A DNA stretch of 47,384 nucleotides from Bacteroidota bacterium (GTDB lineage Bacteria > Bacteroidota > Bacteroidia > Chitinophagales > Saprospiraceae): positions 1-47,384 of the forward strand of contig JAFMDF010000037.1 of assembly GCA_017857395.1 (NCBI GenBank), in the 5' to 3' direction. The translations under genes and the position numbers were made by a program. The notes under the pieces are model-generated. The model was not told the origin of the DNA, made no database searches, and worked only from the letters and a program-made list of their open reading frames with translations. Positions 4,694-31,739 of the stretch are shown here, piece after piece. Position 1 is the first letter of the stretch; each line of letters begins with the position of its first letter.

Positions 4694-4758
4694 GTAGCTT
4701 GGACATTCTTGTCCGAGTATATCACGTTATGCTGCTCGGACAAGAATGTCCAAGTTAC
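4694..4758. repeat. Dyad of TAGCTTGG..CCGAG units
   Basis: 24-base inverted arms (4694-4717 and 4735-4758) differ at one position and are separated by 17 bases. Each arm contains a small hairpin, GGACA-TTCT-TGTCC. The outer TAGCTTGG and inner CCGAG match the units at 18021-18081, 20023-20046 and 31277-31297, although the central part differs. This copy abuts the broken 5' end of the barrel remnant. Confidence 0.8.
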
Positions 4759-4804
4759 AAACGATATTTTGAGATAACCATCGTCAGAATGACCTCTTTT
4801 TCGT

Positions 4805-4812
4805 TATTTTTG
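4805..4812 (+). promoter_or_regulatory. Candidate -7 box TATTTTTG
   Basis: This matches the Bacteroidota -7 consensus TAnnTTTG and lies 15 bases before the methyltransferase ATG, which would leave a very short leader. No good -33 TTG is found 19-21 bases upstream, so support is limited. Confidence 0.35.
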
Positions 4813-4826
4813 CCTAAAATTGAAGC

Positions 4827-5447
4827 ATGCAGCAAAAACTAAAGCTAATAACCCAACTAGGAAGAATTGACGTCTATTTACTCGATCAACTAATGAAAGG
4901 TCGCATTCATCCCAATATGCGTATCTTAGATGCAGGTTTTGGACATGGCCGAAATGCTCAATATTTTATTGAAAATGATTTTGATATTTGGGGGGTAGAC
5001 CGAAAGGAGGAATTAACCCACTTTATCAATGCGCAAATAGATATATGGAATCCAACCTACGATAAAAGTAAATTCAAAATTGCTGGTTTAGAAACGATTC
5101 CTTTTCCAGACAATCATTTCGATTTTATTATCAGCTGTGCCGTCTTCCATTTTGCGGAAAGCAGAACTCATTTTATTCAATTATTTGAAGAAACGATTCG
5201 GGTTTTAAAAACAGGCGGTATTTTTTGGTTTAGAATGACGACGAAGCATACGTTGGAAATGCATGCACAACATTTGCACGATGATATTTATGCTTTACCA
5301 GATGGTTCGACTCGGTATTTATTGGATTTAGACGTTTTGCGGGAGTTAATGGAAAAATATCATTTGACTTTTGTTGACCCTTTTAAAACGATCAATGTGG
5401 CAGATTTGAGGACGATGTGTGTGGGGGTGTTGCAGAAGAGGAGTTGA
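4827..5447 (+). CDS. Class I SAM-dependent methyltransferase
   Basis: A 206-aa methyltransferase with a Rossmann fold. Motif I is ILDAGFGHGRNAQYF (~residues 32-46), followed by the acidic end of strand 2 in GVDRKEE. Later motifs are FPDNHFDFIISCAVFHF and IRVLKTGGIFWFRM, typical of the Methyltransf_11/25 families. The substrate cannot be told. It resembles small TehB/UbiE-like enzymes, but nothing nearby indicates tellurite resistance or quinone synthesis. It stands alone between a gene remnant and a convergent peptidase gene. There is no signal peptide, so it is cytoplasmic. Confidence 0.85.
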   Translation: MQQKLKLITQLGRIDVYLLDQLMKGRIHPNMRILDAGFGHGRNAQYFIENDFDIWGVDRKEELTHFINAQIDIWNPTYDKSKFKIAGLETIPFPDNHFDFIISCAVFHFAESRTHFIQLFEETIRVLKTGGIFWFRMTTKHTLEMHAQHLHDDIYALPDGSTRYLLDLDVLRELMEKYHLTFVDPFKTINVADLRTMCVGVLQKRS

Positions 5448-5478
5448 ACGTCTTTGAGAGAGGGCAATCAGAAATCAT

Positions 5479-5536
5479 ACATCATACATCATAAATCCGT
5501 CACGTAAAAACTAGACGGATTTATGATGTATGATGT
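5479..5536. repeat. Perfect 23-bp-arm dyad between convergent genes
   Basis: Arms 5479-5501 and 5514-5536 are perfect inverted repeats separated by 12 bases. The arm consists of CATACATCATA-type repeats followed by AATCCGTC. It lies between the methyltransferase stop (5447) and the oligopeptidase B stop (5574) and could end both transcripts, although it lacks a strong T-tract. A weaker continuation (AATCAT/ATGATT) flanks both arms. Confidence 0.75.
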
Positions 5537-5573
5537 AAGATTTATGATTTTGGAGCCCTTACTCATCCTATTC

Positions 5574-7631
5574 CTACTCCGTAATCCCCACCAAATCCAA
5601 TATAAAAGCATATTCCATAGCCGTTTCTTTAAAGCGTTCAAAACGCCCAGAAGCGCCACCATGCCCCGTTTTCATATTCGTATAAAGCAACAATTGTTTT
5701 TTTCCTTTTCTCAAGTCTCTTAATTTAGCGACCCATTTAGCAGGTTCCCAATATTGTACTTGGGAATCATGCAATCCAGTCGTCACTAGTAGATTGGGAT
5801 AAGCCTGTGCGGTTACATTATCATAAGGAGAATAAGATTTAATGTAATCATAGTATTCTTTGTTTTTTGGATTCCCCCATTCATTAAATTCGCCTGTTGT
5901 CAATGGAATAGTTTCATCGAGCATAGTGGTTACAACATCCACAAATGGAACTGCGGCAATGACGCCTTTCCAAAGTTCTGGACGCTGGTTGATAATCACC
6001 CCCATCAGAAGACCGCCTGCACTTCCGCCCATCGCAAATAAGCGCTTTTGACGGGTATAATTTTTAGCCAATAAGAACTCTGCACAATCAATGAAATCAT
6101 TGAAGGTGTTTTTCTTTTTAAGCATTTTCCCATCATCATACCAATGCCGTCCCATTTCTTCGCCACCTCGAATATGTGCAATGGCATAAACAAAACCTCT
6201 ATCCAATAAACTTAGCCGAACAGAACTAAAATAAGGCTCCATAGAATGTCCATAAGAACCATAAGCATACAACATGAGTGGAGACTTTCCATTCCGTTTA
6301 AATCCTTTTCTATAGACAATAGAAACGGGCACTTTTACGCCATCTCTTGCCGTAACAAATTGTCTTTCAGATTTATAATTATTGGAATCAAAATCACCCA
6401 GCACTTCCTGCTGTTTAAGCAAAGTCAATTCCTTGGTGACCATATTATAATCGAAATAGGAATTGGGCGTCGTCATGGAAGTAAAGCCAACTCGTACTAG
6501 ATCGGTATCTAGGACATAATTAGTAGAAGTGGATGCCATAAAGGCTTCTTGACCGAAATCTATATAATGTTCTGCGGTGCCAGCCCAAGGTTTGATGCGG
6601 ATTTGAGAAATACCATTAATCCGTTCAGATAAGACTAAATAATCTTTAAAAATGTCCATGCCTTCCAATAAGACATCACTTCTGTTAGGAATGATTTCTG
6701 TCCAATTTTCTTTTGTGGTAGCCAATTCCGACGTTTCCATTAATCGGAAATTCTTAGCATCTAAATTGGTATGCACATAGAATTTATCACCAAAATGGTC
6801 AATACTATATTCGTGTTTATCTTCTCTTTTTTGGAAAATTCGGAATTCGCCATCTGGATTATCCGCTTCTAGAATTCGATATTCTGTAGAAATAGTCATC
6901 GCTGCTACAATGACTAAATATTTTTTAGACTTAGTTTTATAAATACCTGTTCTAAACGTTTCATCTGCTTCGTGATAAATTTCTACATCTTCACTTGCTG
7001 GTGTTCCTAGTTTATGTTTGAAAATTTTGAAGGGTCTTAAGGATTCATCTTTTCGAGTATAAAAAATGGTTTTATTATCATTTGCCCAAATAGCAGAGCC
7101 AGTTGTGTTTTCTATACGGTCTGTTAAATATTCCCCTGTAGCTAAATTTTTAAAACGAAGCGTATAAATTCTACGACTGACGGTATCTTCCCCAAAAGCT
7201 AATAATTGATTATTAGTACTGACACTTGTTCCACCAACAGCATAATAGTCGAAATCTTTTGCTAGTTCATTAACATTTAGCATGATTTCCTCCTGTGCTT
7301 CTAAGGTCTCTTTTTTTCTAGCGTGAATGGGATATTCTTTTCCTTCTTCATAGCGAGTGAAATAAAAATAACCGTCTTTTTTATATGGAACAGACATGTC
7401 CGTTTGCTTAATTCTTCCAACTATTTCCTTGAAAAGAGATGCCTGAAAATCGGTTGTATGTGCCATTACGCCTTCTCGATAAGCATTCTCTGCATTTAGG
7501 TAATCAATGACGTTTTGGTCTTCTTTGTCATTTAACCAATAATAATTATCTATTCTAGTATCTCCATGGATACTTAATGTTTTTGCAATTTTTTTGGCTT
7601 TTGGCGCTTTTATTTTTTTATTGATGGACAT
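5574..7631 (-). CDS. ptrB: Oligopeptidase B (S9A prolyl oligopeptidase family)
   Basis: This serine peptidase cleaves short peptides after basic residues. At 685 aa it has the usual family length. Residues ~1-410 form the beta-propeller cap that restricts access to peptides, and ~415-685 form the alpha/beta hydrolase domain. The catalytic triad is readable: S537 in GGSAGG, D622 in GLHDSQV and H657 in TGHGG. RGGEEMGRHWYDDGK upstream of the serine is characteristic of oligopeptidase B. There is no signal peptide, so it is probably cytoplasmic. It is monocistronic, convergent with the methyltransferase and divergent from the first giant adhesin. Confidence 0.93.
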   Translation of the reverse strand: MSINKKIKAPKAKKIAKTLSIHGDTRIDNYYWLNDKEDQNVIDYLNAENAYREGVMAHTTDFQASLFKEIVGRIKQTDMSVPYKKDGYFYFTRYEEGKEYPIHARKKETLEAQEEIMLNVNELAKDFDYYAVGGTSVSTNNQLLAFGEDTVSRRIYTLRFKNLATGEYLTDRIENTTGSAIWANDNKTIFYTRKDESLRPFKIFKHKLGTPASEDVEIYHEADETFRTGIYKTKSKKYLVIVAAMTISTEYRILEADNPDGEFRIFQKREDKHEYSIDHFGDKFYVHTNLDAKNFRLMETSELATTKENWTEIIPNRSDVLLEGMDIFKDYLVLSERINGISQIRIKPWAGTAEHYIDFGQEAFMASTSTNYVLDTDLVRVGFTSMTTPNSYFDYNMVTKELTLLKQQEVLGDFDSNNYKSERQFVTARDGVKVPVSIVYRKGFKRNGKSPLMLYAYGSYGHSMEPYFSSVRLSLLDRGFVYAIAHIRGGEEMGRHWYDDGKMLKKKNTFNDFIDCAEFLLAKNYTRQKRLFAMGGSAGGLLMGVIINQRPELWKGVIAAVPFVDVVTTMLDETIPLTTGEFNEWGNPKNKEYYDYIKSYSPYDNVTAQAYPNLLVTTGLHDSQVQYWEPAKWVAKLRDLRKGKKQLLLYTNMKTGHGGASGRFERFKETAMEYAFILDLVGITE

Positions 7632-8618
7632 ATATGGCTAGTCTATTTAAAAAATATGAAGTTGCCAAATTATGTATTTTTTGGAGATTTGTTAACTGTA
7701 TGGAAGAAAAAGATTGAGATTCTATATACTATTTTGAATCTGGTTCTTTCGTTATGAAATAACGCTGATTAGAGGTTATATTTGGTTAGAAAAATAAAAA
7801 ATCAAGTAGATTTTAAATTAAGCAGAATGTTATTAAAAAAAGTTTTGTCAAATATATTACATATTTAATAAATAATAAATTGATAAAATACTGACTAGTA
7901 ATCAATTTAAGTATATAGACTAACAGTTATTTAAAAATATAGATAATTATTATTTAAATAATTTTCATTTCTAATAAAAACCCCTTATTTTTGTAGTAAG
8001 CTAACGATATAGCCTACCACAGACTCAACATTTAATTGACATTTTTATTCGTCCATTACTATCCATATTAAAAAATGGCACAGAATTAGTCAATAGATAA
8101 ATCCCCTCACTAGACAGACTAAAGGTTTAAAGAAACAAAAACAAAAAGGAATAAATATCTTTTAACTATTTATTCGGGACTCAATTTTGAACACATCAAT
8201 CAAATTAGGTATAGGTAAACTGTTTTGCACAATTTATTTAGTTGGTAGCTTCCCACTAGTTATTACTTTATAAAAAGACAACTTTCCTATAGGCCTTATT
8301 GAATTTACATCTTTACTTTCCATTGCATACACTTAAAATTCGCTTTAGTTATTGATTGACTGAGGCCTTGTAAATAAATAATTATATCCAAACTATAAGC
8401 TTGTACGGTACAGCCAAATTAGTGCAAACTAAATTAATGCTGTTTGATGCAAGTATTTTTGTTATCTCAAAATTATAGGTAAACTAGCTTATTCGGAATA
8501 AGACTAAAAGTCAGATATTTTAATCGACCTCCTTTTTTGCTATTTACCTTATACGGAATTAATCCCAGTTGAACATAATCCATCGTCAATTTATTTATCC
8601 CAAATTCACGATCCGATT
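7632..8618. other. ~1 kb gene-free leader before giant adhesin
   Basis: This is very AT-rich and no coding sequence is supported. It contains a candidate -7 box at 7986-7993, a perfect palindrome CTTATTCGGAATAAG at 8488-8502, and a related CTTATACGGAAT at 8548-8559. The last two could be paired protein-binding sites. If the promoter is real, the 5' untranslated leader of the adhesin would be over 600 bases. Confidence 0.6.
7986..7993 (+). promoter_or_regulatory. Candidate -7 box TATTTTTG for adhesin
   Basis: Matches TAnnTTTG. A TTTTC at about 7962-7966 stands roughly where a -33 TTTG would be. Transcription from here would give a leader of about 620 bases. Tentative. Confidence 0.35.
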
Positions 8619-11600
8619 ATGAGAATTCTTTTGACACTTTCTTTTTTCCTACTCCTTGGGGCGGGGATAAAGGCACAAAGAATCCATGAAGTCAATACGG
8701 TTGACGACATGGATGATGGCGTCTGCAATGCGGTGCATTGTAGTCTCCGAGAAGCCATAAATGCTGCTAATGCCGATGGCTTTAACAGCGTGATATGGTT
8801 TAAAATTGATGGACCTGGTACTAAAGTTATTACTTTAGCTACCGAACTTCCTGCTATTTCAGGTAAACTGAAAATAGACGGAAATACCTTAGCTAGTAAC
8901 CTGCCAACTACAGGGCGACTTGTCCTTGACGGTAATGACCAGATTAAAAATGGTTTGCTCCTTGCCACAGATGAGGTAGAAATCTATGGCGTACAATTTC
9001 AACATTTTTTAGACAATGCTATTTTAATTGAAAGTACTAATACGGACTTCATCAGTAGTGTGACGCTTGGTAAACGTGAAAAAGGGAACATTTTTATCAA
9101 GAATGGAAACGCTGTTAAAGCTATAAATTTAAAGAAATTAGTCTTTCAGGCAAATTATGTGGGTACTAATTTTGATTTCGAGGAAGGGCTCGGTAATCAA
9201 AATGGGGTGGTTGTCGATAATAATTTGACTTCTGAGGAAAATTCGCTACTAATTATTGGTGGTGAATCTGATAGATTACAACATAATTATTTTGCTAGTA
9301 CTACAGGAACAGCACTTTCCTTATCGTATCAAGGAATTGCCACGATAGAAGGAAATATCTTTGGAACAGGTAAGATTGGAAATGAGGACTTAGGCAATAA
9401 TATTGCAGTTCAAACAACGAACGGTAGAGGTCGAGTGGATATTGGAGGTGCACCTGATACAAAAAATGTTTTTGCATATAATGAAAATGCCGTTATTATT
9501 GACCAAAATAATTATGTAAATATTAGTGAAAATAGTTTTTATTGTAATGGCTTAGGCTTAAACATTACCAAAAACACTTACCCTATTCCTACCATTACCA
9601 GTGGAGTAGAAACCATGCTTATTGGAATATCTCAGCCTTATGATGTGATTGAAGTTTATATTTCTGATGAAAATACCTGTAATAGCGAAAATTGCCAAGG
9701 GATGATTTATCAAGGTACAGTTACCGCAAGTAGTGCTGGAAACTGGCAATTTCCTGGATTTTTTGATTTTGGTCAGCAAGTTGTTGCGCTTTCTAGAAAT
9801 AGTGGTCGTCAATCCATGTTTTCTCAATGTTTTAAAGTTTGTCCAGGAAATATTGAATCTATCGCTGCCAATGAGGGGCCTTATTGTAAGAATGATACGA
9901 TTCAGTTGACTTCAGACCTAAATATTCATGGTTTTCAATGGGTGACACAATTTGATGAATCAGATATAACTTACGATTGGCAAGGCCCAAATGGGTTTAT
10001 TTCTAATGAAAAGAATCCAAAAAATATTGCGGAAAGAGGAGATTACGTTTTACAAACCTACCTATTAGGATGCCCTTCAACACCTGATACGACAGAAGTT
10101 AAAGTGGCCATACTAGAAGCAGCTATTGTGGACGTTCCTGTTAATTGTCGAGCGGAAAGCATCGAGCTTAATAGTAGCATTACTAGTAATATTGGCAGAG
10201 TAGACTATCATTGGTCAGGGCCAGAAGGATATACTTCTAGTCAAAAAAATCCGACGGATGCAAGAGCTGCGGGTGTTTATCAATTATTTGTTTCAGGCGA
10301 TGAATGCCAGTCAGATATGGCAAGTGTAACGGTGGAAAATCATTTTCCAGTACCTTTTTCTTTAGGTGCAGCTACTGCTTTATGTGTGGGCGAATCTGTC
10401 TCTTTAGCTGTTCCAAACTATAATTATTATCAATGGGGAGGAACACTTGAGGTAAATTGCGATACTTGTGCTAGTATTGAATTGACCCCTAACCAAAGCG
10501 GAACGCTTCAATTAATAGCTGGTTCTACACCTACTTGTACGGTTGAGGCGACGCTTGCCATTGAAGTAATTGCACCAATTAATGTAACAGAAGAACGAAC
10601 TTTATGCCCAGGTAGTAGCATGAATATATTTACCAAAACGATTGACGAACCTGGTACTTACCAAGCTTCCTTTACTGCTCAATCTGGCTGTGATTCTACC
10701 CATACTTTTATTATCACCCAGCCCAAAGTTAATCGAGTAGTAGAAACTAAGGTTATTTGCGAAGGAGAATCTGTGAAACTATTTGGCGAAACTTATGGGG
10801 CGTCAGGAATTTATGCCGCTTCTTTTACTTCCGCAAGTGGTTGTGATTCTACTCATGTCTTAGAATTAGAAGTCCTAAAAGAAACTTTTGTAGAAAAATC
10901 TTACACAATATGTGCAGGCGAAACGATGAACGTTTTTGGGACGCCTGTTGGTGAATCCACTACGATATCTAAAGTTTTTACTGCTAGTAATGGTTGCGAT
11001 TCTACGCTTCAAGTAAATGTATTGGTGAAAGAAGCTTATCAAGAAGCTGCTAAAATTACCCTCTGTGCAGGAGAAACTACCAATCTATTTAATGGACTGA
11101 TTGTAGAAGAAAGCGGTTTTTACCAAAGAGATTTTACGGCTAGTAATGGCTGTGATTCTATCGTTATGGTAGAAGTAGAAGTTTTAATACCTATTGAAAC
11201 TTTCCAACATAATACAATGTGCGATGATGAAGCATTGGACTTATTTGGGGAGGAAAGTGCTTTTCCTAATGATTATGTAGAAACCTTTACAGCACAATCT
11301 GGTTGCGATTCCATCAATCATGTTTCTTACGATATTAGATTTCGACAAGAAGTAGAAGAACATATTACGATTTGTGGTACAGATAAATATCTATTAGAAG
11401 GAAATGAAGTTACGGAGTCTGGTCGATATAGTTATATTTATAGCGCAGCAAATGGTTGTGATTCCATGCATATTACGGATGTTACGGTTTTAGATATACC
11501 TTATGGAGAAGCGACTTATGAATTATGCGCAGGAGAATCTATGGAGGTATTTGGCGTAAATGTAGGAACGGCAGGAATTTACTCCGAAGTATTAGCAAGT

Positions 11601-14600
11601 AGCAATGGTTGTGACTCTTTTCATACGATTACTATTTTTATCAAAGAAACGCAAGTTACGAATGAAGTAAGAACGATATGCGAAGGCGAATCGATTACTT
11701 TATTTGATAAATTAGTGTCTTCAGATGAGGTAGTTAGTAGAACTTTTGCTGGAAATAATGGCTGTGATTCTACCCATACTATCCAAGTAACGATGTTACA
11801 AAAAATAGTTACAGAGGGAACAAAAGCTATTTGCGAAGCAGATTGTATTGAATTATATGGAGCAACGGCTTGTTTAGATAAGGTCTATCAACAGACTTTT
11901 ACGGCTCAGTCTGGTTGTGATTCGACCCATACCCAATTTTTAACGACTATCGCACCGCAAGAAGTGTTACAAGAATACTTGCTTTGTGCAGGCGATTCAC
12001 TAATTGTTTTTGATTCTTTTATTAAGGAAGCAGGTACTTTTTCACAAATGTTTACAGGTGCAAGTGGCTGCGATTCGATGCATACTTTTATTATTACCCA
12101 ACCGAGTGCTAATCAAGTATTTGAAGCGAAAACTATTTGTGAAGGAGAAACTGTCAACCAATTCGGACAAACTTATGCGACGACTGGAACTTATGAAGCG
12201 TCTTATTCGGCAGCAAATGGTTGTGATTCTACTCATATTTTAGAATTGACGGTATTAACGCCAACTTTTGCAGAAGCGACTTATGAAATTTGTGCAGGCG
12301 AGTCCACTATGGTTTTTGGAGAATCTATTGAACAAGCGAGTATTTTGTCAAGGGTTTTTACGGCAGCAAATGGTTGTGATTCTACCCATACGGTAACGGT
12401 TTTTGTGAAAGAAGCGCAAGTGACCAATGAAGTAAGAACGATATGTGAAGGCGAATCTATTACATTATTTGATAAATTAGTGTCTTCGGACGAGGTAGTG
12501 AGTAGAACTTTTGCTGGAGCTAATGGCTGTGATTCTACCCATACTATCCAAGTAACGATGTTACAAAAAAGAACAACAGAAGGAACAGAAGCTATTTGTA
12601 CAGCAGATTGCATTGAATTATATGGTGCTACAGCTTGTTTAAATAACGTCTATCAACAGACTTTTACCGCTCAATCTGGTTGCGATTCTACCCATACCTT
12701 GTTTTTAACGACTATGGAACCGCAAGAAGTCGTACAAGAATACTTGCTTTGTGCAGGTGATTCACTGGCTGCTTTTGATAGTTTTATTAAAGAATCAGGG
12801 ACCTTTTCACAAATGTTTACAGGCGCAAGTGGCTGCGATTCGATGCATACTTTTATTATCACCCAACCGAGTGCCAACCAAGTATTTGAAGCGAAAACTA
12901 TTTGTGAAGGGGAAACAGTCAGTCAATTCGGACAGACTTATGCGACGGCTGGAATTTATGAAGCGGCCTATTCGGCAGCGAATGGTTGTGATTCTATTCA
13001 TGTTTTAGAACTGACGGTATTAACGCCAACTTTTGCGGAAGAGACTTATGAAATTTGTGCAGGAGAATCTACCTTAGTTTTTGGAGAATCTATTGAACAA
13101 GCAAGTATAGTTTCAAGAGTTTTTACAGCGGCAAATGGTTGTGACTCTACGCATACGGTAACCGTTTTTGTGAAAGAAGCGCAAGAGACGAATGAAGCCA
13201 TGACAATTTGTGCAGGAGAATCCATTCAACTTTTTGATAAATTAATTACTTCGGACGAAATAGTTAGTAAGACTTTTACTAGTGCGAGTGGTTGTGATTC
13301 TACCCATACGATAGCGGTAACGGTACTGCAAAAAATTACGACGGAGGAAACAACTTCTATCTGTGCCGCTGCTTGTGTGGAGTTATACGGAGCAACTGCC
13401 TGTGCGGATAAAGTGTATCAACAGACCTTTACAGCTAATGCTGGTTGTGATTCTATACATACCTTGTTTTTGACGACAACGGAGATGGTCGAAACTACTC
13501 AATCTTTTACGCTTTGTTCAGGTGATTCTTTAGCCGCTTTTGATGGTTTTATCAAAGAAGCGGGTATTTTTTCTCAGGCTTTTACAAGTGCAAGTGGTTG
13601 TGATTCTATGCACACTATCGTTCTTGAATTTACAGCAGAAATGACGACTAATATTGTCACTAGTCCTTCTTGTATAGAAAGTAATGGTGGTAGTGTCGAA
13701 CTAACTGTTGCAGGTGGAGTAGCGCCTTATACCGTTTCTTGGGAAGGATATAATATAGGGAATAATTTTGCTGTAGATAATTTAGAACCAGGTAGTTATG
13801 AGGTGCAAATTAATGATGCATTAGGCTGTGAATGGAATCAACATATTCAAATTGAAGCCATTCCGAGCCCTATTATAGAAAAAGAAATTTTGAGTATTAG
13901 TTGTTTTGGTGCCAATGATGGGGCAGTTGATTTATTTTCTAACCAAACAGACTTAAGGTATAGTTTGGATGGTATTAACTATTTTACAGAAGCCTCCTTT
14001 TCCGCCTTGCCACCAGCGACTTATGAGGTATTTATTCAGGATGAGGCTGGATGTAGCTACATGGAAGAATTTACCCTTTTTCAACCAGCTCCTTTAGATG
14101 TAGCATTACCCGCTGAAGAAACGGTTAAATTAGGTGCATCTGTACAACTTGAACCTGTAACTAATACTCAAAATACGATTCGATATGATTGGGAAGCGAT
14201 TGCTTCTTTAAGTTGTTTGGATTGTGAAAAACCGATAGCGACACCTTTTGAAGATACCCAATATACCTTGACTATTTATGATGAAAATAATTGTGAGAGT
14301 CAAGCTCAAATTTGGGTTAGAGTAGACGACAATAAGGATATTTATGTACCCAATGTCTTTAGTCCTGATGGCGATGGATTGAATGACCTCTTTACTATTC
14401 TAACGGTAGATGGCCCTATTCAAGAAGTGGAGACTTTTAAGGTCTATGATCGTTGGGGAAACTTAATGTATGAAGCCAACCATTTTGACCCATTAGATGA
14501 AAATTTTGGTTGGAATGGTCGTTATAAAGGAAAATTAATGGATAATGGCGTTTTTATCTATTTTGCTATTGTCAAATTTGTGGATGGAACAGAAGAAGAA

Positions 14601-14630
14601 TTAAAAGGGGATGTGACCTTGACCAAATAA
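8619..14630 (+). CDS. Giant T9SS type B adhesin with 20 Cys-rich repeats
   Basis: A 2003-aa secreted protein. Signal peptide MRILLTLSFFLLLGAGIKAQ is followed by a CSLREA motif (VHCSLREAINAANAD) and a region with right-handed beta-helix character (~50-330). Two Ig/PKD-like modules follow (~410-640). Then come 20 tandem ~51-residue repeats (~655-1675), each with a C(E/A)GE motif and a GCDSTHT-like motif, so two cysteines per repeat. Two SprB-like repeats follow (~1680-1830), and the end is a gliding-motility-associated C-terminal domain (YVPNVFSPDGDGLNDLF to the end), the type B sorting signal of T9SS. It is probably exported and attached to, or released from, the cell surface; an adhesive role is inferred. 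Units 8-12, 13-17 and 18-20 form a 765-bp super-repeat. A strong terminator follows. Confidence 0.9.
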   Translation: MRILLTLSFFLLLGAGIKAQRIHEVNTVDDMDDGVCNAVHCSLREAINAANADGFNSVIWFKIDGPGTKVITLATELPAISGKLKIDGNTLASNLPTTGRLVLDGNDQIKNGLLLATDEVEIYGVQFQHFLDNAILIESTNTDFISSVTLGKREKGNIFIKNGNAVKAINLKKLVFQANYVGTNFDFEEGLGNQNGVVVDNNLTSEENSLLIIGGESDRLQHNYFASTTGTALSLSYQGIATIEGNIFGTGKIGNEDLGNNIAVQTTNGRGRVDIGGAPDTKNVFAYNENAVIIDQNNYVNISENSFYCNGLGLNITKNTYPIPTITSGVETMLIGISQPYDVIEVYISDENTCNSENCQGMIYQGTVTASSAGNWQFPGFFDFGQQVVALSRNSGRQSMFSQCFKVCPGNIESIAANEGPYCKNDTIQLTSDLNIHGFQWVTQFDESDITYDWQGPNGFISNEKNPKNIAERGDYVLQTYLLGCPSTPDTTEVKVAILEAAIVDVPVNCRAESIELNSSITSNIGRVDYHWSGPEGYTSSQKNPTDARAAGVYQLFVSGDECQSDMASVTVENHFPVPFSLGAATALCVGESVSLAVPNYNYYQWGGTLEVNCDTCASIELTPNQSGTLQLIAGSTPTCTVEATLAIEVIAPINVTEERTLCPGSSMNIFTKTIDEPGTYQASFTAQSGCDSTHTFIITQPKVNRVVETKVICEGESVKLFGETYGASGIYAASFTSASGCDSTHVLELEVLKETFVEKSYTICAGETMNVFGTPVGESTTISKVFTASNGCDSTLQVNVLVKEAYQEAAKITLCAGETTNLFNGLIVEESGFYQRDFTASNGCDSIVMVEVEVLIPIETFQHNTMCDDEALDLFGEESAFPNDYVETFTAQSGCDSINHVSYDIRFRQEVEEHITICGTDKYLLEGNEVTESGRYSYIYSAANGCDSMHITDVTVLDIPYGEATYELCAGESMEVFGVNVGTAGIYSEVLASSNGCDSFHTITIFIKETQVTNEVRTICEGESITLFDKLVSSDEVVSRTFAGNNGCDSTHTIQVTMLQKIVTEGTKAICEADCIELYGATACLDKVYQQTFTAQSGCDSTHTQFLTTIAPQEVLQEYLLCAGDSLIVFDSFIKEAGTFSQMFTGASGCDSMHTFIITQPSANQVFEAKTICEGETVNQFGQTYATTGTYEASYSAANGCDSTHILELTVLTPTFAEATYEICAGESTMVFGESIEQASILSRVFTAANGCDSTHTVTVFVKEAQVTNEVRTICEGESITLFDKLVSSDEVVSRTFAGANGCDSTHTIQVTMLQKRTTEGTEAICTADCIELYGATACLNNVYQQTFTAQSGCDSTHTLFLTTMEPQEVVQEYLLCAGDSLAAFDSFIKESGTFSQMFTGASGCDSMHTFIITQPSANQVFEAKTICEGETVSQFGQTYATAGIYEAAYSAANGCDSIHVLELTVLTPTFAEETYEICAGESTLVFGESIEQASIVSRVFTAANGCDSTHTVTVFVKEAQETNEAMTICAGESIQLFDKLITSDEIVSKTFTSASGCDSTHTIAVTVLQKITTEETTSICAAACVELYGATACADKVYQQTFTANAGCDSIHTLFLTTTEMVETTQSFTLCSGDSLAAFDGFIKEAGIFSQAFTSASGCDSMHTIVLEFTAEMTTNIVTSPSCIESNGGSVELTVAGGVAPYTVSWEGYNIGNNFAVDNLEPGSYEVQINDALGCEWNQHIQIEAIPSPIIEKEILSISCFGANDGAVDLFSNQTDLRYSLDGINYFTEASFSALPPATYEVFIQDEAGCSYMEEFTLFQPAPLDVALPAEETVKLGASVQLEPVTNTQNTIRYDWEAIASLSCLDCEKPIATPFEDTQYTLTIYDENNCESQAQIWVRVDDNKDIYVPNVFSPDGDGLNDLFTILTVDGPIQEVETFKVYDRWGNLMYEANHFDPLDENFGWNGRYKGKLMDNGVFIYFAIVKFVDGTEEELKGDVTLTK
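11652..13620 (+). repeat. 765-bp super-repeat inside adhesin gene
   Basis: Copies start at 11652, 12417 and 13182 (third partial), with an exact offset of 765 bases (255 codons, five 51-aa units) measured at several landmarks. Copies 1 and 2 are nearly identical over long stretches. The repeat is in frame, so unequal recombination would lengthen or shorten the protein without breaking it. Confidence 0.85.
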
Positions 14631-14637
14631 AAAGAAT

Positions 14638-14670
14638 AAGGCGGTTGTTTCCCACAACCGCCTTGTTTTT
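14638..14670 (+). terminator. Strong rho-independent terminator
   Basis: A perfect 11-bp GC-rich stem, AAGGCGGTTGT/ACAACCGCCTT, with loop TTCCC and then GTTTTTTATTTT. It lies 8 bases after the adhesin stop. The trehalase gene converges from the other side. Confidence 0.92.
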
Positions 14671-14677
14671 TATTTTC

Positions 14678-14719
14678 AACTTTAACTTTAACTTTAATAG
14701 CAATAGCAATAGCAATAGC
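14678..14719. repeat. Hexanucleotide microsatellite
   Basis: Three copies of AACTTT (14678-14695) run directly into four copies of AATAGC (14696-14719). The array lies between the adhesin terminator and the trehalase stop codon and is non-coding. Length changes by slippage are likely. Confidence 0.85.
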
Positions 14720-14734
14720 AATTTTAGAATATAA

Positions 14735-16339
14735 TCAATCAACTGCCCCTTCACTAACCAACTTCAACAAAACCCCATTCGTCCATCCAAATCCATCTTG
14801 AACAGGATACTCACCACCGCCAGCGTCTAAACTCAAATCCACCACATTATATTTTTCTACTAATTTACCTGTATTTTTATAAACTTTAGTATTCAATTTA
14901 ATCCATCGGTCTTTAATGGTATTGGCTAAAGTTTTATTGCCATAATTTCGCAAACCTTCAATCGTCATCCATTGTAAAGGTGCCCAACCATTCGGATAAT
15001 CCCATTGTTGCCCATTGTCAGTCAGCGTAGAAACGACGCCACCAGGCATTAAGAATTTATTTTCAATGACTTTAGCTACTTTTTCGGATTGGTCGGTTGT
15101 TGCCATATTAAAAGTTAAAGGATATATCCCTGCAAGAGAAGGAATGCCTGTAAAAGATTGGGCAACAAAATCATAATCTTGGAAATAGCCCATGTCGTTA
15201 TCCCAACAAAATTGAGTTAAAGCAGCCTTTCTTAAATTAGCTTTTTGAGAATATAAATTAGCGGCTTCTTGATTGCCGCTCATCACGTTTGCTTTAGCCA
15301 ATACTAACTCTAAATTATATAATAAAGCATTCAAATCTACAGGAATTATATCCGTGGTATGAATGGTCGATAATTTTTGTGGGTCGCTAAACCAACGGCT
15401 ACTGAAATCCCAACCAGATTCACAAGCTGCTCGTAAATCACTGTACACTTGTTTTTCAGGGCGGTTACTTTCTTTGATGGTTTCGACATCTTCTCGATAA
15501 CTTTCTGCTCTAGGAAAATCACCTTTATCAAAATACCGATTTAAGATACTGCCATTTGGTAAACGAACAATCTTTTTATTGGTCGGGTTTGCTGCATTCA
15601 CTTGTTCTAAGCCATCCATCCAATAGGCATATTCTTTCGTCAGTTGAGGTAAGTAAGTAACGATGGTATTATCGCCCTTTTGCTCTGCTAATACTTGCAC
15701 CATTCTTGCAAAAAAAGGCGGTTGGGAACGAGTCAAAAAATAAGTCCGATTACCATTAGGAATAAACCCTACTTTGTCAATAATGTAAGCAAAATTATTG
15801 ACCATATTTTCAATCATATCTGTTTTGCCAGCTGATTGTAAACCCAACATGGTAAAATAACTATCCCAATAATAGATTTCTCCAAATCGACCGCCGGGGA
15901 CAATATAGGGATTTGGTAAACTAATTAAACTGCCTGTATTAGCGGCATCTGGTTGACGAGTTAAAACGGGCCATAAAGAATTGATGTGTTCCGCTACACT
16001 TTTACTAGTATCTGCTTGAAAGCCTGAGGCATATTGTTTAGGTTTTTCAAAGTGTTTTAATACAAAATCTTTCAGCTTGAAATCTGTTTTATCTTTATCA
16101 GTGGCATAATTTGCCATGATTTGTGCGGTGGTAAACTTAGGCGTGCAATCCACAAAAGTTTTACCATCAGGGAATATTTTGTTAAGTTGTACTTGTTCGA
16201 ATAATGCGCCAAAACGTTCATTTGGAGGCAATTCTTTTTTTGTTTCGACTGCTGATGTTGGCTCCAACTTAGGCGGATTTTTACAACCAAATGCGACCAC
16301 GAAAAACGCGAGCAAAAGGGTAGTGGAAAAGTTTTTCAT
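14735..16339 (-). CDS. treA: Trehalase, GH37 lipoprotein
   Basis: This enzyme hydrolyses alpha,alpha-trehalose to two glucose molecules. Both trehalase signatures are present: PGGRFGEIYYWDSY (residues 148-161) and QWDYPNGWAP (445-454). The ESGWDFSSRW segment carries the expected acid Asp, and E495 in LVEKYNVVD fits the catalytic base by analogy with E. coli trehalase. A lipoprotein signal ends at AFGC (C19), so it acts in the periplasm or at the outer membrane. The 534-aa length is normal for the family. The permease gene upstream on the same strand is 138 bases away and a -7-like box lies between, so it may have its own promoter. Confidence 0.94.
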   Translation of the reverse strand: MKNFSTTLLLAFFVVAFGCKNPPKLEPTSAVETKKELPPNERFGALFEQVQLNKIFPDGKTFVDCTPKFTTAQIMANYATDKDKTDFKLKDFVLKHFEKPKQYASGFQADTSKSVAEHINSLWPVLTRQPDAANTGSLISLPNPYIVPGGRFGEIYYWDSYFTMLGLQSAGKTDMIENMVNNFAYIIDKVGFIPNGNRTYFLTRSQPPFFARMVQVLAEQKGDNTIVTYLPQLTKEYAYWMDGLEQVNAANPTNKKIVRLPNGSILNRYFDKGDFPRAESYREDVETIKESNRPEKQVYSDLRAACESGWDFSSRWFSDPQKLSTIHTTDIIPVDLNALLYNLELVLAKANVMSGNQEAANLYSQKANLRKAALTQFCWDNDMGYFQDYDFVAQSFTGIPSLAGIYPLTFNMATTDQSEKVAKVIENKFLMPGGVVSTLTDNGQQWDYPNGWAPLQWMTIEGLRNYGNKTLANTIKDRWIKLNTKVYKNTGKLVEKYNVVDLSLDAGGGEYPVQDGFGWTNGVLLKLVSEGAVD

Positions 16340-16442
16340 ACAATATTTATTAAAAGAGTAAGGAGGTCTTAAGGTAATGAACGAATGCTAATTTTCTAAT
16401 CAATTCCTTTTTTCTACTATATCTTACAATTTTTTGTAGCAC

Positions 16443-16450
16443 CAAATTTA
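16443..16450 (-). promoter_or_regulatory. Candidate -7 box TAAATTTG for trehalase
   Basis: Read on the minus strand, TAAATTTG matches TAnnTTTG and lies about 100 bases before the trehalase start. Only a weak TTTAG is found at the -33 distance. Confidence 0.35.
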
Positions 16451-20006: not shown

Positions 20007-20022
20007 GGTATTATTTTTAAAG

Positions 20023-20046
20023 TAGCTTGGGCTTCCAGCCCGAGTA
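20023..20046. repeat. Single TAGCTTGG..CCGAGTA unit
   Basis: A 24-base copy of the unit seen twice at 18021-18081, including the inner hairpin GGGCT-TCC-AGCCC. It lies between the histidine kinase stop and the deacylase start, and misleads start prediction for the deacylase. Confidence 0.85.
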
Positions 20047-20099
20047 ACATTAAGTACTTGGACGAAAATAAAGTGAGCCATTTTGCTTTTATCGCCTGA

Positions 20100-21155
20100 C
20101 TAATCCAAATCAATTTTTAAATCGACCGCATAAGAATTTGGTTCATTTTCTACTTTTAAGTCATAATGCTCTGGGTATAAAATATTTAATCGACGACGGA
20201 CATTCACTAAGCCAATTCCGCCACTTCGAGGATGTTCAGGAAGGGGCACAGAATCTGGTTTACTATTTTCAATCCGTAATCTGACCATCTGCTGGTCTAC
20301 GTCTAATCGAATATCTACATAGCCTTGATTAATATGATGATTTAGACCATGTTTGAAACTATTTTCCAAAAAAGGGATGAACATCAAAGGCGCAATTGTT
20401 TGATTGGTAACTTCCCCATAAACGTCGAAATTTATTTCTACTTCCTTTCCTTGTCTCAATGCTTCTAAGTCCAAATAATTCTGGATATAATTGACTTCTT
20501 TAGATAAAGGCACTCGTTTCTCATTGCATTCATACAACATGTACCGCATCATTTCAGATAATTTGATGACTATTTCTGGTGCTTTATCCGATTTTTTAAG
20601 GGTGAGCGCGTATAAATTATTTAAGGTATTAAACAAAAAATGCGGATTGATTTGAGATTTTAAAAACCGCAATTCCGATTGCATTGTTTGAGTTTGTAAA
20701 TCCGTTCTTTCTCGTTGATGTTTGACCCAATCAGAGACAATTTTGACAATGGTAGAAGCGCCAACAATGGTCATATTGATTAAAAAATAAGTATGCTGAT
20801 TAGCCGCTAAATAGTGTTGGTCTCTTGGGAAATCTGAATATTTAAAAAAGAATAAAATGTTACTTAAAGGCGTAACGATGATAACGGAAAGGATTAATAA
20901 ACAACAGTAAATAAAGAAACGGTCTTTCGTTAGATAATTGGCAATTAAATAATAATAATTATAATAAATCATTCCACCAATAATAAGCGTTCGCAATATG
21001 GCATTGGTGACATGGAACATAATAGGATGGGTAAAACTTTCAAAAGAGAATAGAATCAGAAACCCTAGTATCCAAAAAATACTATGGTAAACAGTCCTTT
21101 GAGCAAAAAAGTCGTATATTTTATTCCTGATATTTTCTTTTCGTGAATTCGGCAT
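20100..21155 (-). CDS. LytS-type sensor histidine kinase
   Basis: A 351-aa membrane histidine kinase of the His_kinase (PF06580) type. Four hydrophobic segments (about 23-40, 47-72, 80-104, 122-140) are followed by the phospho-acceptor helix SQINPHFLFNTLNNLYAL (H172) and an HATPase domain with APLMFIPFLENSFKHG and SGGIGLVNVRRRL. In Bacteroidota these kinases usually pair with a LytTR response regulator in the adjacent gene, but none is found here, so its partner must be elsewhere. No separate sensor domain is seen; sensing would be by the membrane region. Confidence 0.9.
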   Translation of the reverse strand: MPNSRKENIRNKIYDFFAQRTVYHSIFWILGFLILFSFESFTHPIMFHVTNAILRTLIIGGMIYYNYYYLIANYLTKDRFFIYCCLLILSVIIVTPLSNILFFFKYSDFPRDQHYLAANQHTYFLINMTIVGASTIVKIVSDWVKHQRERTDLQTQTMQSELRFLKSQINPHFLFNTLNNLYALTLKKSDKAPEIVIKLSEMMRYMLYECNEKRVPLSKEVNYIQNYLDLEALRQGKEVEINFDVYGEVTNQTIAPLMFIPFLENSFKHGLNHHINQGYVDIRLDVDQQMVRLRIENSKPDSVPLPEHPRSGGIGLVNVRRRLNILYPEHYDLKVENEPNSYAVDLKIDLD

Positions 21156-21268
21156 TTGATGAATTGAGTGCTAGTTTAAATACTATTTCAAAGAAAAGCA
21201 TTCTTTTTTAATAGCACCTTAGAAAATAGATAAAAATGAATGGCTTTTAGACGAAAAGAAAGTTTTTA

Positions 21269-21730
21269 TTATGCCAATTTCATCAATAACTTTATTTGTC
21301 CTAAATGATAAAGACTATGATTCACAATTCCAGTCAATAAAAAGAAAAAATTATAGGACCGCCCCGGTACCCCTTCTAATAAGACAGAATCTTCTGTATA
21401 TTTTAATTTTTCCATTAATTGATCATGAATTTCTTGTAAGCGTTTTTGGGCGGCTTTCCAATCTGCTTCGGTAGGATTCTCAATCCTAGTAAAATTAATA
21501 GGGCCAACTACATCAAAATCTGGATCGCCTTCGAGTTTTTTGATAATGAATAATTTCCAAGAAGCGATATGATTCACTAACTCAATAATATTATGACTAT
21601 CATTGATTCGATTTCCAATGATGGCAGGGTCAATTATTTTTATAGTTTCTAAGACAGCAGGGCCATGCCATGCAGGGCCATTATAGCAACTTTTTATTAA
21701 GGAACGGATACGCCTAACTTCTGAGTACAT
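21269..21730 (-). CDS. DinB-fold putative metalloenzyme
   Basis: A 153-aa protein with DinB/YfiT-like four-helix-bundle pattern: AWHGPAVLETI near the start, NIIELVNHIASWKLFIIKKL in the middle and GIVNHSLYHLGQIKLLMKL at the end. The three histidines expected to bind metal are in WHG, NHIASW and YHLGQI. The family includes thiol-dependent transferases, but most members are of unknown role. It is single, with a reasonable promoter directly upstream. Confidence 0.8.
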   Translation of the reverse strand: MYSEVRRIRSLIKSCYNGPAWHGPAVLETIKIIDPAIIGNRINDSHNIIELVNHIASWKLFIIKKLEGDPDFDVVGPINFTRIENPTEADWKAAQKRLQEIHDQLMEKLKYTEDSVLLEGVPGRSYNFFFLLTGIVNHSLYHLGQIKLLMKLA

Positions 21731-21761
21731 AGCTGAATGATTTGATTATTTTGTAATCACG

Positions 21762-21790
21762 AAAATATAAAAAAAATGATGCTTTGCCAA
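21762..21790 (-). promoter_or_regulatory. Candidate Bacteroidota promoter for DinB gene
   Basis: On the minus strand, TTG (21790-21788), an 18-base spacer, and TATATTTT (21769-21762) resemble TTG-N19-TAnnTTTG. The last base differs from consensus. The start codon lies about 30 bases downstream. Confidence 0.45.
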
Positions 21791-22708
21791 TTTTTTTAAA
21801 CCTTGAATAATTATCAATATTTTAGCCGAATATTTAGAGATATTAAGAAATGCTATTAAGTGTCAAATTATCGAAAAAATATACCCGAATTATTGTCACA
21901 AATCCTTTTTTTTCTAAAAAAAAGATAATAGTTTAATTAAATAACAATATGTAAATAATAGGTTTATAATTCTATAAAAATAACTATTTATTTGCTATAG
22001 AGATAGCTTTAATCTAATGAATTTATTAGTGAATAAAAAGAGACAAATAACCTGTCACAAAGGATACTGTGAAAAATGACTTTAAAGCTAAAAATTAACG
22101 ACTTTTAGACCAAAGAATATTGAATTATCTCCCCTTATAGTTTAAAAATTCTTAATACTATGCAAGGTATCAAAAGACGAAAGCTTGATTATCAGCACTA
22201 AACAATTTAGCATTTTTAATTATCAATCTATTTTTAATAGAACTTTGACAGGGTGTTTTTTTGAAAAATCATTCACTATTGTACAAATTTCTCAGTAATC
22301 TACAATCACAACTTTAACCCATCTTTCATTGCTTATTACACTGATAATTGACCACTAAATTGGTTAACTGAAATTTGGGATACTTATTCCCTGATAAATC
22401 AAATTTCTGATTGATTCCCTGCCTTTCCTGATAAGCAAAATTGAGTTACTTAACACTACAAACTTGTAGTACCAATAGGATGAATAGATGAGTTAAAATT
22501 TGTTTCTGCTAAGGTTTCCTTTAAGGATACTTTTAATTGAGGAAGCAAACTTATCTTTTTAGTGATGATGAAAAAATAATTTAGTCTTTTAATGGCTTGT
22601 TTTAGCTTTCTTTTTTACCAGTAATATTGTTTGTAAAAAGAAAGCTAAAGGAAGGTGACCAACTTATTTTTAGGATTATTTAGCTGTTATCCTTTTAAAT
22701 TTTAAAAA
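21791..22708. other. Gene-free leader before SprB-repeat protein
   Basis: AT-rich, with no supported coding sequence. It contains a small palindrome ACTACAA-AC-TTGTAGT (22455-22470), TTCCCTGATAA-like direct repeats around 22389-22433, and a hairpin at 22601-22649 close to the gene start. Like the leader at 7632-8618, it is unusually long for this gene density. Confidence 0.55.
22601..22649 (+). promoter_or_regulatory. Leader stem-loop before SprB-repeat gene
   Basis: Arms TTTAGCTTTCTTTTTTAC (22601-22618) and GTAAAAAGAAAGCTAAA (22633-22649) pair over 17 bp with one bulged T and a 14-base loop. It ends 59 bases before the ATG. It could be an attenuator, an RNA-stability element or the end of a preceding short transcript. 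Confidence 0.55.
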
Positions 22709-29346: not shown

Positions 29347-29396
29347 TGTAACACAGCTCTCTGAGCGGTGCTGCCTAATAAGTAGTGAAAAATCAT

Positions 29397-29440
29397 AAAA
29401 AAGGTTCGATGGTTATTACCGTCGGACCTTTTTTGTTTGG
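29397..29440 (+). terminator. Strong rho-independent terminator
   Basis: A 16-bp stem (29397-29412/29419-29434, two G-T pairs) with a 6-base loop; arm core AAGGTTCGATGG. The A-run on the left and T-run on the right make it able to act in both directions, toward the convergent recN gene as well. Confidence 0.9.
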
Positions 29441-29467
29441 GAGATACCACGGATTTTTTCTGTAGTG

Positions 29468-29482
29468 CCAAGCTCTGCTTGG
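29468..29482. repeat. Small hairpin CCAAGC-TCT-GCTTGG
   Basis: A 6-bp perfect stem within a stretch that also carries two CGGATTTTTT direct repeats (about 29452 and 29498). It is non-coding DNA between convergent genes. Confidence 0.6.
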
Positions 29483-29580
29483 TGGATTTATTATCTCGGA
29501 TTTTTTACTACGGATTGGAGATATTACGAAAATTTGTGGTTAACCTGAATAAAACACATCGAAATCAGCGTCAAAAAATA

Positions 29581-31242
29581 TTATGCCATTGCCAATAACT
29601 CCTTCGCATTCTCAATAGCAGAATCAGAAGGTGGATTCGTACTTAACATAGTCGCAATGGCTCTTATTCTTTCTTGTGGATCTAGTGCTCGTACCTTCGT
29701 TTTCGTGCGCTCTCCATCCACTCTTTTATACACAAAATAATGCGCATCTGCTTTCGAGGCCACCTGCGGAGAATGGGTAATGACAACTACTTGATGTTCG
29801 TTGGATAATTTGCGTAGAATCCGTCCCATTTTTAAGGCAACATCGCCAGAAACGCCTGCATCTATTTCATCGAAAATCAAAGTTGGTAAAGGAATGGCAC
29901 TTGCCACTAAAGACTTGATACACAAGGTTAAACGAGATAATTCTCCACCAGAAGCCACTTGTTTGATAGATAAAAAACGACTGCCTTTATTAGGAGCAAA
30001 TAAGAATTCTACAATATCTCCACCTGTTGGTAATAATTCTTGGGAAGGGGTAATAGACACCTGCAAACGAGCATGTTCCATTGACAAAAGCGCCAATTGT
30101 TGATGTACCAATTGTAGGAAACCATTCACTACAGATTTTCTACGTTTAGTTAATTGAGTAGCTATTTTTCTAAGTTGTAGCTCTGCTTTAGTAATGGCAT
30201 TTTCTAAAGCTATAATTTCATTAGATAAATCCCCGAAAGAAGTTAATTGCTGGATAATAGCATCTTGAATTTCCAATAATTCGGGAACAGAATTAACACC
30301 ATGTTTTTTCTGTAAACGATAGATTAAATCTAGCCGATTTTGTACTTCTGTCGCTCGTTCTGGATGATATTCTGTATCACTTGCAATACTTTCAAACTCA
30401 TTCGCTAATTCGCCTAATTCTAAAACTATCCCATCGTATTTTTCTAGAAGCGGCCCTAAGGTAGGTTGGTATTTCCGAATTTGATTTAAAGAAACGCCCA
30501 AAACTTCTAATTGACTTAACACGGATTGTTCACTTTCGGATAAGTGCATAAAAGCGCTGTTCAATTTAGACTTTATTTCTTCCGCATTATTTAAAGTAGA
30601 TAACTCACCCTCTAATCCATCTTGTTCGTCTGCTATTAATTCTGCGGTATTAAATTCTTCTAATTGAAAGTTTAAAAAATCAGTTTCTTTAGCAGACGTC
30701 TCATTTTGCAAAATGAGTTTTTTGAGCTTCTGTTGATTATTTTTATACCCCTTAAATTGTTGTTCGTATTTTTTAATGATTGCCCCATTATCAGCTAAGG
30801 CATCGACCATTCTTAATTGGAAAGACACATCATTAATATCTTGTGTATCAAACTGCTGATGCAAGTCAATTAAACTGCTGCTTAACTGTTGTAAAACTTT
30901 TAGATTAACAGGTGTATCATTGACAAAAGCCCTAGTTTTTCCGGAGGGTAATAATTCTCTTCTAACCACGGTTTCTTCTTCGGAATCAATATCATTGGCT
31001 TCAAAAAAAGGTCTTAATCCACTATATCTACCTATTTCAAAATTAGCTTCAATGACACATTTTTTACTGACATCGTACAATGCTTTCGTATCTGCTCTTT
31101 TGCCCATAATCAAACCCAAAGCACCCAATAGAATAGACTTTCCAGCCCCCGTTTCTCCCGTAATAATTGTTAAGCCTTTAGAGAATTGTATTTCCAATGC
31201 CTCAATAATGGCGTAGTTTTTTATTTGGAGCGTTTTTATCAT
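29581..31242 (-). CDS. recN: DNA repair protein RecN
   Basis: An SMC-like ATPase acting early in double-strand break repair. Walker A is GETGAGKS (residues 29-36). Coiled-coil arms cover ~150-370. The ABC signature region is SGGELSRLTLCIKSL and Walker B is PTLIFDEIDAGVSGD (D458-E459), with the switch histidine in VITHSPQVA. The 553-aa length is typical. It is single, divergent from mltA, with degenerate repeat DNA upstream. Confidence 0.96.
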   Translation of the reverse strand: MIKTLQIKNYAIIEALEIQFSKGLTIITGETGAGKSILLGALGLIMGKRADTKALYDVSKKCVIEANFEIGRYSGLRPFFEANDIDSEEETVVRRELLPSGKTRAFVNDTPVNLKVLQQLSSSLIDLHQQFDTQDINDVSFQLRMVDALADNGAIIKKYEQQFKGYKNNQQKLKKLILQNETSAKETDFLNFQLEEFNTAELIADEQDGLEGELSTLNNAEEIKSKLNSAFMHLSESEQSVLSQLEVLGVSLNQIRKYQPTLGPLLEKYDGIVLELGELANEFESIASDTEYHPERATEVQNRLDLIYRLQKKHGVNSVPELLEIQDAIIQQLTSFGDLSNEIIALENAITKAELQLRKIATQLTKRRKSVVNGFLQLVHQQLALLSMEHARLQVSITPSQELLPTGGDIVEFLFAPNKGSRFLSIKQVASGGELSRLTLCIKSLVASAIPLPTLIFDEIDAGVSGDVALKMGRILRKLSNEHQVVVITHSPQVASKADAHYFVYKRVDGERTKTKVRALDPQERIRAIATMLSTNPPSDSAIENAKELLAMA

Positions 31243-31739
31243 TGATGTTATTCGTGTAGTAATTGATGGTTGAGTAGTAGCTTGGTTCTAGCCGAGTAAA
31301 ATAAAAACTTCTCCTGCTAAAAGCCTAAGCTACTTCTTATCAATCAATTGAGATTTGTGATACGTTTAGTCTAAATAGTTTATCCCTCTTATCAACAAAG
31401 TTAGGGCTTGTCTAGCATATTTACTAATGCGGCTGTTGAATTTAAGTAGTGATTATTAAATATTTTAAAACTAATATTTAATAAAAAAATAATGCAACTT
31501 TGGCAACAAGCCCAGCAAAATCGGGGCAAGTATACTAATATTTGTTAGAATTTACAATTATTTGTTTTAAAAATTAGTGTTTTGAAATTTTTATATGTTA
31601 TATTTGCATGAGTTAAAACACCCCTTAACAGCAAGTAGTAACTTAAAATCGTTCATAAAAGAAAGATACGGAATACAAGAAGTCTCGATTTTTTCACTAA
31701 GGTTTTTGTATTTAGATAAAATCTATAAAGATTACATTT
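31243..31739. other. Intergenic repeat remnants between recN and mltA
   Basis: No gene is supported. A degenerate dyad of the TAGCTTGG..CCGAGTA family lies at about 31263-31348: left unit TAGCTTGGTTCTAG then CCGAGTA, right arm beginning TAGCTTAGGCT on the other strand. A second possible remnant of ~110 bp is bounded by GGGCTTGT (31404-31411) and ACAAGCCC (31506-31513), with no target duplication. A good -7 box for mltA is at 31599-31606. Confidence 0.5.
31599..31606 (+). promoter_or_regulatory. Candidate -7 box TATATTTG for mltA
   Basis: An exact TAnnTTTG match, 133 bases before the start. The nearest TTTTG (31580-31584) is only 14 bases away, shorter than the usual ~19-base spacer, so the -33 part is uncertain. 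Confidence 0.4.

Follow-up and report, generated by a model that had tools for sequence, protein, structure and literature searches.

The window analysed here, a stretch of 47,384 nucleotides (nt), is contig JAFMDF010000037.1 of assembly GCA_017857395.1 (Saprospiraceae), referred to below as the home assembly or home genome (window, G000:C317). It carries a family of short hairpin-forming repeats, present as two near-perfect inverted pairs, one single unit and one decayed pair. Very probably these repeats are repetitive extragenic palindromic (REP) elements of the GTAG type, many of them arranged as REPINs, that is, as inverted hairpins with their GTAG feet outside, and copied by a REP-associated tyrosine transposase (RAYT) of the lineage of a gene found in another genome of the genus (G006:C271).

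Our annotation confirmed repeats at all four places listed in the preliminary description of this DNA (4694-4758, 18021-18081, 20023-20046 and 31263-31348), which had named neither the repeat family nor its GTAG foot. The first pair opens with a unit of the CATTCTTG tip class at 4694-4719 on the plus strand, consisting of a GTAG foot and a hairpin (fold z -4.2), and closes with an inverted partner at 4733-4758 on the minus strand, whose foot has changed to GTAA (covariance model, 24.8 bits). Its arms (4694-4717 and 4735-4758) are 96% complementary, and the whole pair folds as a single strand at -24.9 kcal/mol (z -9.8). The second pair is built from a plus-strand unit of the CTTCYAG tip class at 18020-18044, with its foot changed to ATAG (fold z -3.0), and an inverted minus-strand partner at 18058-18082 with an intact GTAG foot; the arms (18016-18045 and 18057-18086) are 93% complementary and the pair 18020-18082 folds at -32.9 kcal/mol (z -11.6). 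This pair almost fills the gap between two convergent stops (open reading frame (ORF) ends at 18017 and 18086) and is flanked by genes for a DUF4833 protein and a thioredoxin-like protein. The single unit, also of the CTTCYAG class, lies at 20022-20046 on the plus strand, and the copy 20021-20046 is 100% complementary to 18058-18083. It falls within the ORF 19536-20081 as first called and 53 nt beyond the stop of a histidine-kinase gene (20100-21155), and it is probably located just upstream of the true start of the ORF, an inner ATG at 20008. Finally, the repeat around 31 kb, already described as degenerate, resolved into a unit at 31278-31298 (31277-31298, plus strand, as annotated) with a shortened tip, TTCTAG (covariance model, 32.4 bits), and a decayed inverted partner at 31314-31333, recognised by eye from its GTAG foot on the minus strand and missed by the covariance model. 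This decayed pair folds modestly as a strand (z -2.3, equalled by 7 of 200 shuffles), and the single units of the window fold with z values from -2.8 to -4.2.

These repeats are not expected from the composition of the window: the pattern AGCTTGGN{3,20}CCGAGT was observed five times against 0.02 by chance. The 8-mer TAGCTTGG alone gave a weaker signal (5 observed against 1.55 expected, with 3 of 100 shuffles reaching 5). Run without filters at E<=1, the covariance model returned seven matches for the window: the six real units and a seventh, apparently due to chance, at E=0.54.

Anatomy, number and placement of the repeat units

Across the 10.15-Mb home genome the exact pattern TAGCTTGGN{3,20}CCGAGTA occurs 57 times (28 forward and 29 reverse), compared with 0 for the reversed-pattern control. 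The covariance model found 138 matches at E<=0.1 and 123 at E<=0.01; both counts probably underestimate the true number, since no more than 150 of approximately 3,700 first-look candidates were scored. The 138 matches make up 104 loci, 34 of them two-unit clusters and 70 singles. The refuting case of the preliminary description, a genome with no more than the few copies of the window, did not arise, given these 57 exact copies and 104 model loci. A G precedes TAG in 55 of the 57 exact copies, and therefore the unit reads as GTAG followed by the hairpin. The exact copies fall into two tip classes, 27 of the CAT type (CATTCTTG and variants) and 30 others that are mostly CTTCYAG, and the bases ahead of the unit are ACCG in 14 of the former and AAAG in 10 of the latter; the CATTCTTG and CTTCYAG classes are subfamilies.

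The stem showed covariation. With 56 distinct copies aligned, the sixth pair (columns 14 and 23) is G-C in 26, A-U in 23, G-U in 3, unpaired in 3 and gapped in 1, and none of 500 shuffles reached its covariation score or its 23 double-change cells, in agreement with the earlier remark that the middle of the unit changes and stays self-complementary. However, the alignment did not exceed the shuffles in its number of pairs or of pair types (362 of 500 and 500 of 500, respectively), because only two pairs are free to vary, and sliding it by -3 still gave a score of 0.115 against 0.134 in register. Among the 81 further copies found by the model, an unpaired 5' GTAG foot is present in 79, the stem cells are paired in 549 of 567 cases and the fourth stem pair varies, being G-C in 53, A-T in 23, G-T in 3 and A-C in 2, data that count as support and not as an independent test because the model rewards such features. 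The outer bases had also been described as kept, which holds for the foot and not for the fourth stem pair, which varies with compensation; this constancy was partly apparent because the search word had fixed those bases. The stem has one irregularity, its third pair being a T-G wobble in 56 of 56 aligned copies, where the search word fixed it, and in 69 of the 81 further copies. In addition, two copies in the home genome (C180:2400 and C557:1323) are double-foot hairpins, GTAG...CTAC.

Of the 34 clustered pairs, 33 are inverted with their feet outside and one is arranged ++, with spacers of 6-63 nt (median 16). A rough regular expression for the tips, which left 7 of the 138 units unclassified, placed both members in the first class in 20 pairs and in the second in 10; 2 pairs were mixed, and in the remaining 2 one of the members fell in neither class. 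A partner-like foot is present on the expected side of 17 of the 70 singles and on the other side of 4, so some singles are decayed pairs.

The placement of the repeats with respect to genes was analysed with gene ends taken from ORFs of at least 100 amino acids, no gene caller being used. Only 5 of the 104 loci lie inside an ATG-started ORF of this size, though such ORFs cover 79% of those loci; when GTG and TTG starts were allowed the number rose to 10, several of them at ORF ends. With ATG ORFs, 55 loci are between tandem genes, 24 between convergent and 10 between divergent ones, and 10 are at edges, compared with 137 tandem, 40 convergent and 37 divergent neighbouring gene pairs at the same loci. 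For 70 of the 103 neighbouring 3' ends the distance to the element is at most 50 nt (median 15 nt), compared with 17 of the 75 neighbouring 5' ends (median 126 nt), the reverse of the lack of enrichment at gene ends that had been envisaged as a counter-result. Furthermore, in the 53 tandem gaps with room the element is nearer the 3' border in 42 (p 2e-5), and single copies between tandem genes have their hairpin on the gene strand in 25 cases and on the opposite strand in 10.

RAYT genes and related genomes

In two other genomes of the genus, repeats of the window's family adjoin RAYT genes. At G006:C271 the RAYT-like gene overlaps a pair of the family (GTAGCTTAGACATTCCTGTCTGAG), its stop codon TAG being also the TAG of the pair's GTAG. 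A second RAYT, of which G008:C481 holds the first 19-20 residues, begins just after a repeat pair (GTAGCTCAAGCTTCTAGCTTGAG) and is 79-80% identical to the G006 protein over that stretch. The G006 protein scores 25.8 bits against PF01797 (cut-off 23) and has the motifs NHVH, WQ and, at the Y motif, YVLNNA. The model NF047646 (REP-associated tyrosine transposase) matches all ten RAYTs of the genus at E<=0.001, in whose alignment N-H-x-H, W and Y are invariant, and the profile of the RAYT alignment matched a single solved structure at E<=0.01, 4ER8 (named TnpArep). Elsewhere, the closest full relative among the matches listed is G179:C15, from another genus and 63% identical, which has upstream two exact CTCAGACATTCCTGTCTGAG hairpins and one variant, the same hairpin core. 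The other nine aligned RAYTs of the genus are 27-47% identical to the G006 protein and their hairpins, where found, are different.

The flanks of 40 RAYT loci were searched for GT[AG]-footed hairpins (30 loci with sequence from the 46 matches listed and 10 from the genus, the broken or oddly read L262 and L263 being kept as misses). A footed hairpin was found on at least one side of 28 loci and on both sides of 21, with the same hairpin on both sides at 18. A first control of 10 ORFs gave 0 positives. In a second control 3 of 127 ORFs had the same hairpin on both sides, one of them a RAYT that had passed the filter (L249) and two in L189 beside window-family repeats; a footed hairpin stood on some side of 72 of these 127 ORFs, because many of their loci had been chosen for carrying repeats of the window's family. 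The RAYT relative at L262 (G222:C68) has 2 in-frame TAG stops.

Model matches at E<=0.01 were found in all nine genomes of the genus, 123 in the home genome, 26 in G006, 21 in G003, 13 in G008 and 3-5 in each of the other five. Under stricter filters, 3 of 150 genomes across the family gave matches at E<=0.001 (home, G001 and G093), which is an undercount, looser filters having given matches at E<=0.01 in all nine genomes of the genus. G093, from another genus, has one intact pair with the CTTCCAG hairpin. Among 60 relatives the exact pattern turned up in 4, one of which is the home genome; two of these four hold single matches that look like chance. A scan of genome contigs for the exact pattern gave two contigs, one from Saprospiraceae (apparently G006) and one labelled Planctomycetota; the latter (L132) has one exact hairpin match and would represent either a mislabelled bin or a transfer.

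The home genome itself has seven Y1 matches, and no unit of the window's family was found in the examined flanks of its Y1 genes. The RAYT of C558 was discarded as the mover of the repeats, as it is flanked on either side by a hairpin of its own, GACGAATTCATTCGTC; this hairpin has six exact matches genome-wide, four of them at the C558 gene, and at that gene (L167, 2336-3152) it is GTAC-footed. The IS200-type Y1 genes and the RAYT-like genes of C496 and C80 were likewise discarded, with no window-family unit in the flanks examined and other hairpins nearby. The Y1 genes at L070 (2601-2835, IS200-type) and L071 (3859-4035) have nearby hairpins of their own (GACCTCTCTGAGGTC and AGTCCCTTTAGGGACT), and L067 (G000:C496) and L068 (G000:C80) hold three related RAYT-like genes amid AT-rich hairpins such as CAAGTTTTCAACTTG. 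Two of these three were scanned with NF047646 and both are above its cut-off; the three genes are possibly members of the 'atypical' Bacteroidetes subclass 2.6.

Other features of the window were also recorded. An inverted repeat at 4172-4246, with 33-nt arms that are 91% complementary, lies at the stop of a GH20 gene; it was rejected as a sister REP family, and it may be a gene-specific hairpin, because its core pattern matches this one place in the genome. Another inverted repeat, AT-rich, of 36 nt and 94% complementary, lies between convergent ORFs at 5466-5549. In the 2003-aa ORF 8619-14630 a 47-nt repeat occurs 14 times between 10671 and 13627, mostly with a 153-nt period, and reads as a Gly-Cys-Asp-Ser motif repeat. 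The bacterial small signal recognition particle RNA (RF00169) at 42492-42586 is the sole Rfam match of the window at the gathering score.

Origin of the repeats

The anatomy of the repeats, together with published features of the E. coli system, of transposase subclass 2.4 and of GTAG REPs, points to movement or copying by a RAYT. According to this model, the unit would fold into a hairpin in single-stranded DNA, and a RAYT of the G006:C271 lineage, an HUH-type Y1 transposase, would bind foot and hairpin, nick beside them and copy or insert the pair elsewhere. Copies landing in genes would be lost by selection, so that the survivors would gather behind stop codons, and the two tip classes would perhaps be served by two RAYT alleles. 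The preliminary description had offered selection on structure or a copying mechanism, and at the level of sequence a REP/REPIN family would fit both, as the enzyme would need the hairpin and the RAYT would do the copying.

Several observations weigh against this interpretation. The home assembly gave no RAYT of the G006:C271 lineage, for which gene loss and an assembly gap are both possible because the assembly consists of 631 contigs in spite of its completeness of 100 (contamination 4.82%), and the home relative nearest to the G006 RAYT, that of C558, is only 35 and 43% identical in two pieces. G003, with 21 model matches, likewise gave no RAYT match (82% complete). The two linked RAYTs are cut by contig ends, so the repeat was seen on one side of each. 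The G006 protein scores 56.5 bits against NF047646, below the curated cut-off of 80, and the hairpins of G179 have no GTAG foot. The same footed hairpin on both sides is missing at 22 of the 40 RAYT loci, 12 of which have none at all, and the 81 further copies owe their selection to a model in which foot and stem raise the score. Moreover, an empty-site comparison at 18086-19465 gave no comparable site, because gene order around it is not kept in the relatives examined (G008, G007 and G002): of the window genes tried, 20100-21155 has a counterpart near the G008 relative of 18086-19465, in a rearranged order, and none lies near those of G007 or G002.

The missing enzyme raises a further possibility, to which we give a rather low chance: that the two REPIN subfamilies persist without a resident cognate RAYT, either as orphans outliving their enzyme or as elements mobilised in trans by a distant RAYT that recognises no more than the foot and the lower stem. 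Since the RAYT of the sister species uses the GTAG of a REP as its stop, gene and repeat are fused there and could regulate each other. It is quite improbable that the hairpins, as DNA that does not move or has ceased to, owe their maintenance mainly to a role as RNA elements at the 3' ends of genes, in transcription termination or in protecting mRNA. The strong 3'-end placement, the preference of single tandem-gap copies for the gene strand, the very stable folding of paired elements and the home assembly without a cognate RAYT match would all suit such a role. However, no terminator-like match (a GC-rich hairpin plus a T run) fell at the elements in the scanned region 4000-22000, which leaves the 31-kb copy outside, and this region had 9 such matches compared with 12.4 in shuffles; no Rfam match was found at the elements either. 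The GTAG foot is unpaired and there is no known need for it in a terminator, and some process of copying is needed to explain near-identical units at many unrelated loci and the junction of copies with RAYT genes in sister species.

Being inverted repeats with a short spacer, the pairs resemble a minimal miniature inverted-repeat transposable element (MITE), and they might be remnants of a DDE-type transposon with the hairpins as terminal inverted repeats. Terminal inverted repeats would not need each arm to be itself a compensated hairpin, a single arm is present at 70 of 104 loci and RAYTs are the only genes found adjoining the family, which makes a MITE-like origin very unlikely. Even less credit is due to an artefact, either of chance palindromes or of contamination or mixed assembly, in spite of the size of this bin (10.15 Mb, compared with 3.7-7.1 Mb in 8 congeners), its 631 contigs and its 4.82% contamination: the reversed control gave 0 matches where the pattern itself gave 57, which argues against chance, copies are spread over many contigs, with five exact ones on the window contig alone, and the family is also present in G006, G003 and G008.

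Taking the repeats as GTAG-type REPs copied by a RAYT, these data place a GTAG REPIN population and a likely RAYT lineage in Saprospiraceae. RAYTs with many different hairpins, the closest relatives sharing a core, offer a natural series in which to follow how enzyme and hairpin change together, and more than 100 copies with apparently no matching RAYT make the question of whether REPINs can outlive their enzyme testable in this genus.

Comparison with known systems

This kind of element is already known, here from bacteria of which little has been described, and the enzyme subclass is already reported from Bacteroidetes; what is unusual is that two subfamilies stand side by side and that no RAYT of the linked lineage was found in the home assembly. 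In Pseudomonas, REPINs (Bertels and Rainey, in 2011) reportedly have the inverted REP pair as their repeated unit. The present family is like them in this respect, as far as Pseudomonas REPINs are described in the part of Quentin et al. 2018 (PMC6006769) used here. Unlike them, it has other hairpins and no matching-lineage RAYT was found in its home assembly. Our literature search, which left most subscription papers outside, gave no report of extragenic palindromes in Saprospira or of a REP-associated tyrosine transposase in Bacteroidota.

The statements that follow refer to the available parts of the papers cited. GTAG-tagged REPs are short palindromes with an unpaired GTAG at one end, are associated with RAYTs, lie mostly downstream of coding regions and, in most families, privilege head-head dimers with GTAG outside (Di Nocera et al. 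2013, PMC3733652). The window's family shares the palindrome, the foot, the head-head dimers, the downstream placement and the RAYT link. In the part of that survey considered, GTAG repeats are listed for Proteobacteria, Cyanobacteria, Chloroflexi and the PVC (Planctomycetes-Verrucomicrobia-Chlamydiae) group and Bacteroidetes are named only for CGTC repeats, whereas here they occur in a genus of Saprospiraceae. By motif alone, the G006 RAYT resembles RAYT group 4, or TnpA-REP subclass 2.4, which is abundant in Cyanobacteria and Bacteroidetes and has the motifs NH[IFV]H, WQ and YIxNNP, long GT[AG]G-footed hairpins beside the gene, some of them 'double-foot', and, typically, REP insertion within the gene (PMC6006769). 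The NHVH and WQ of the G006 protein, the GTAG REPs beside G006:C271 and G008:C481 and the two double-foot copies of the home genome agree with this subclass, while the Y motif YVLNNA differs from YIxNNP. The one enzyme-REP pair described as solved and tested is from E. coli, others being from Stenotrophomonas and Marinomonas; the cut made by the E. coli enzyme in single-stranded REP falls at CT, next to the hairpin, and depends on the GTAG (PMC8266576). Like the E. coli REPs and bacterial interspersed mosaic elements (BIMEs), the family described here has the GTAG foot, the hairpin and the dimers, and the RAYT profile matches 4ER8; E. coli REPs need an AA-GC bulge (PMC8266576), and the window's family has instead the T-G wobble at the third pair of its stem.

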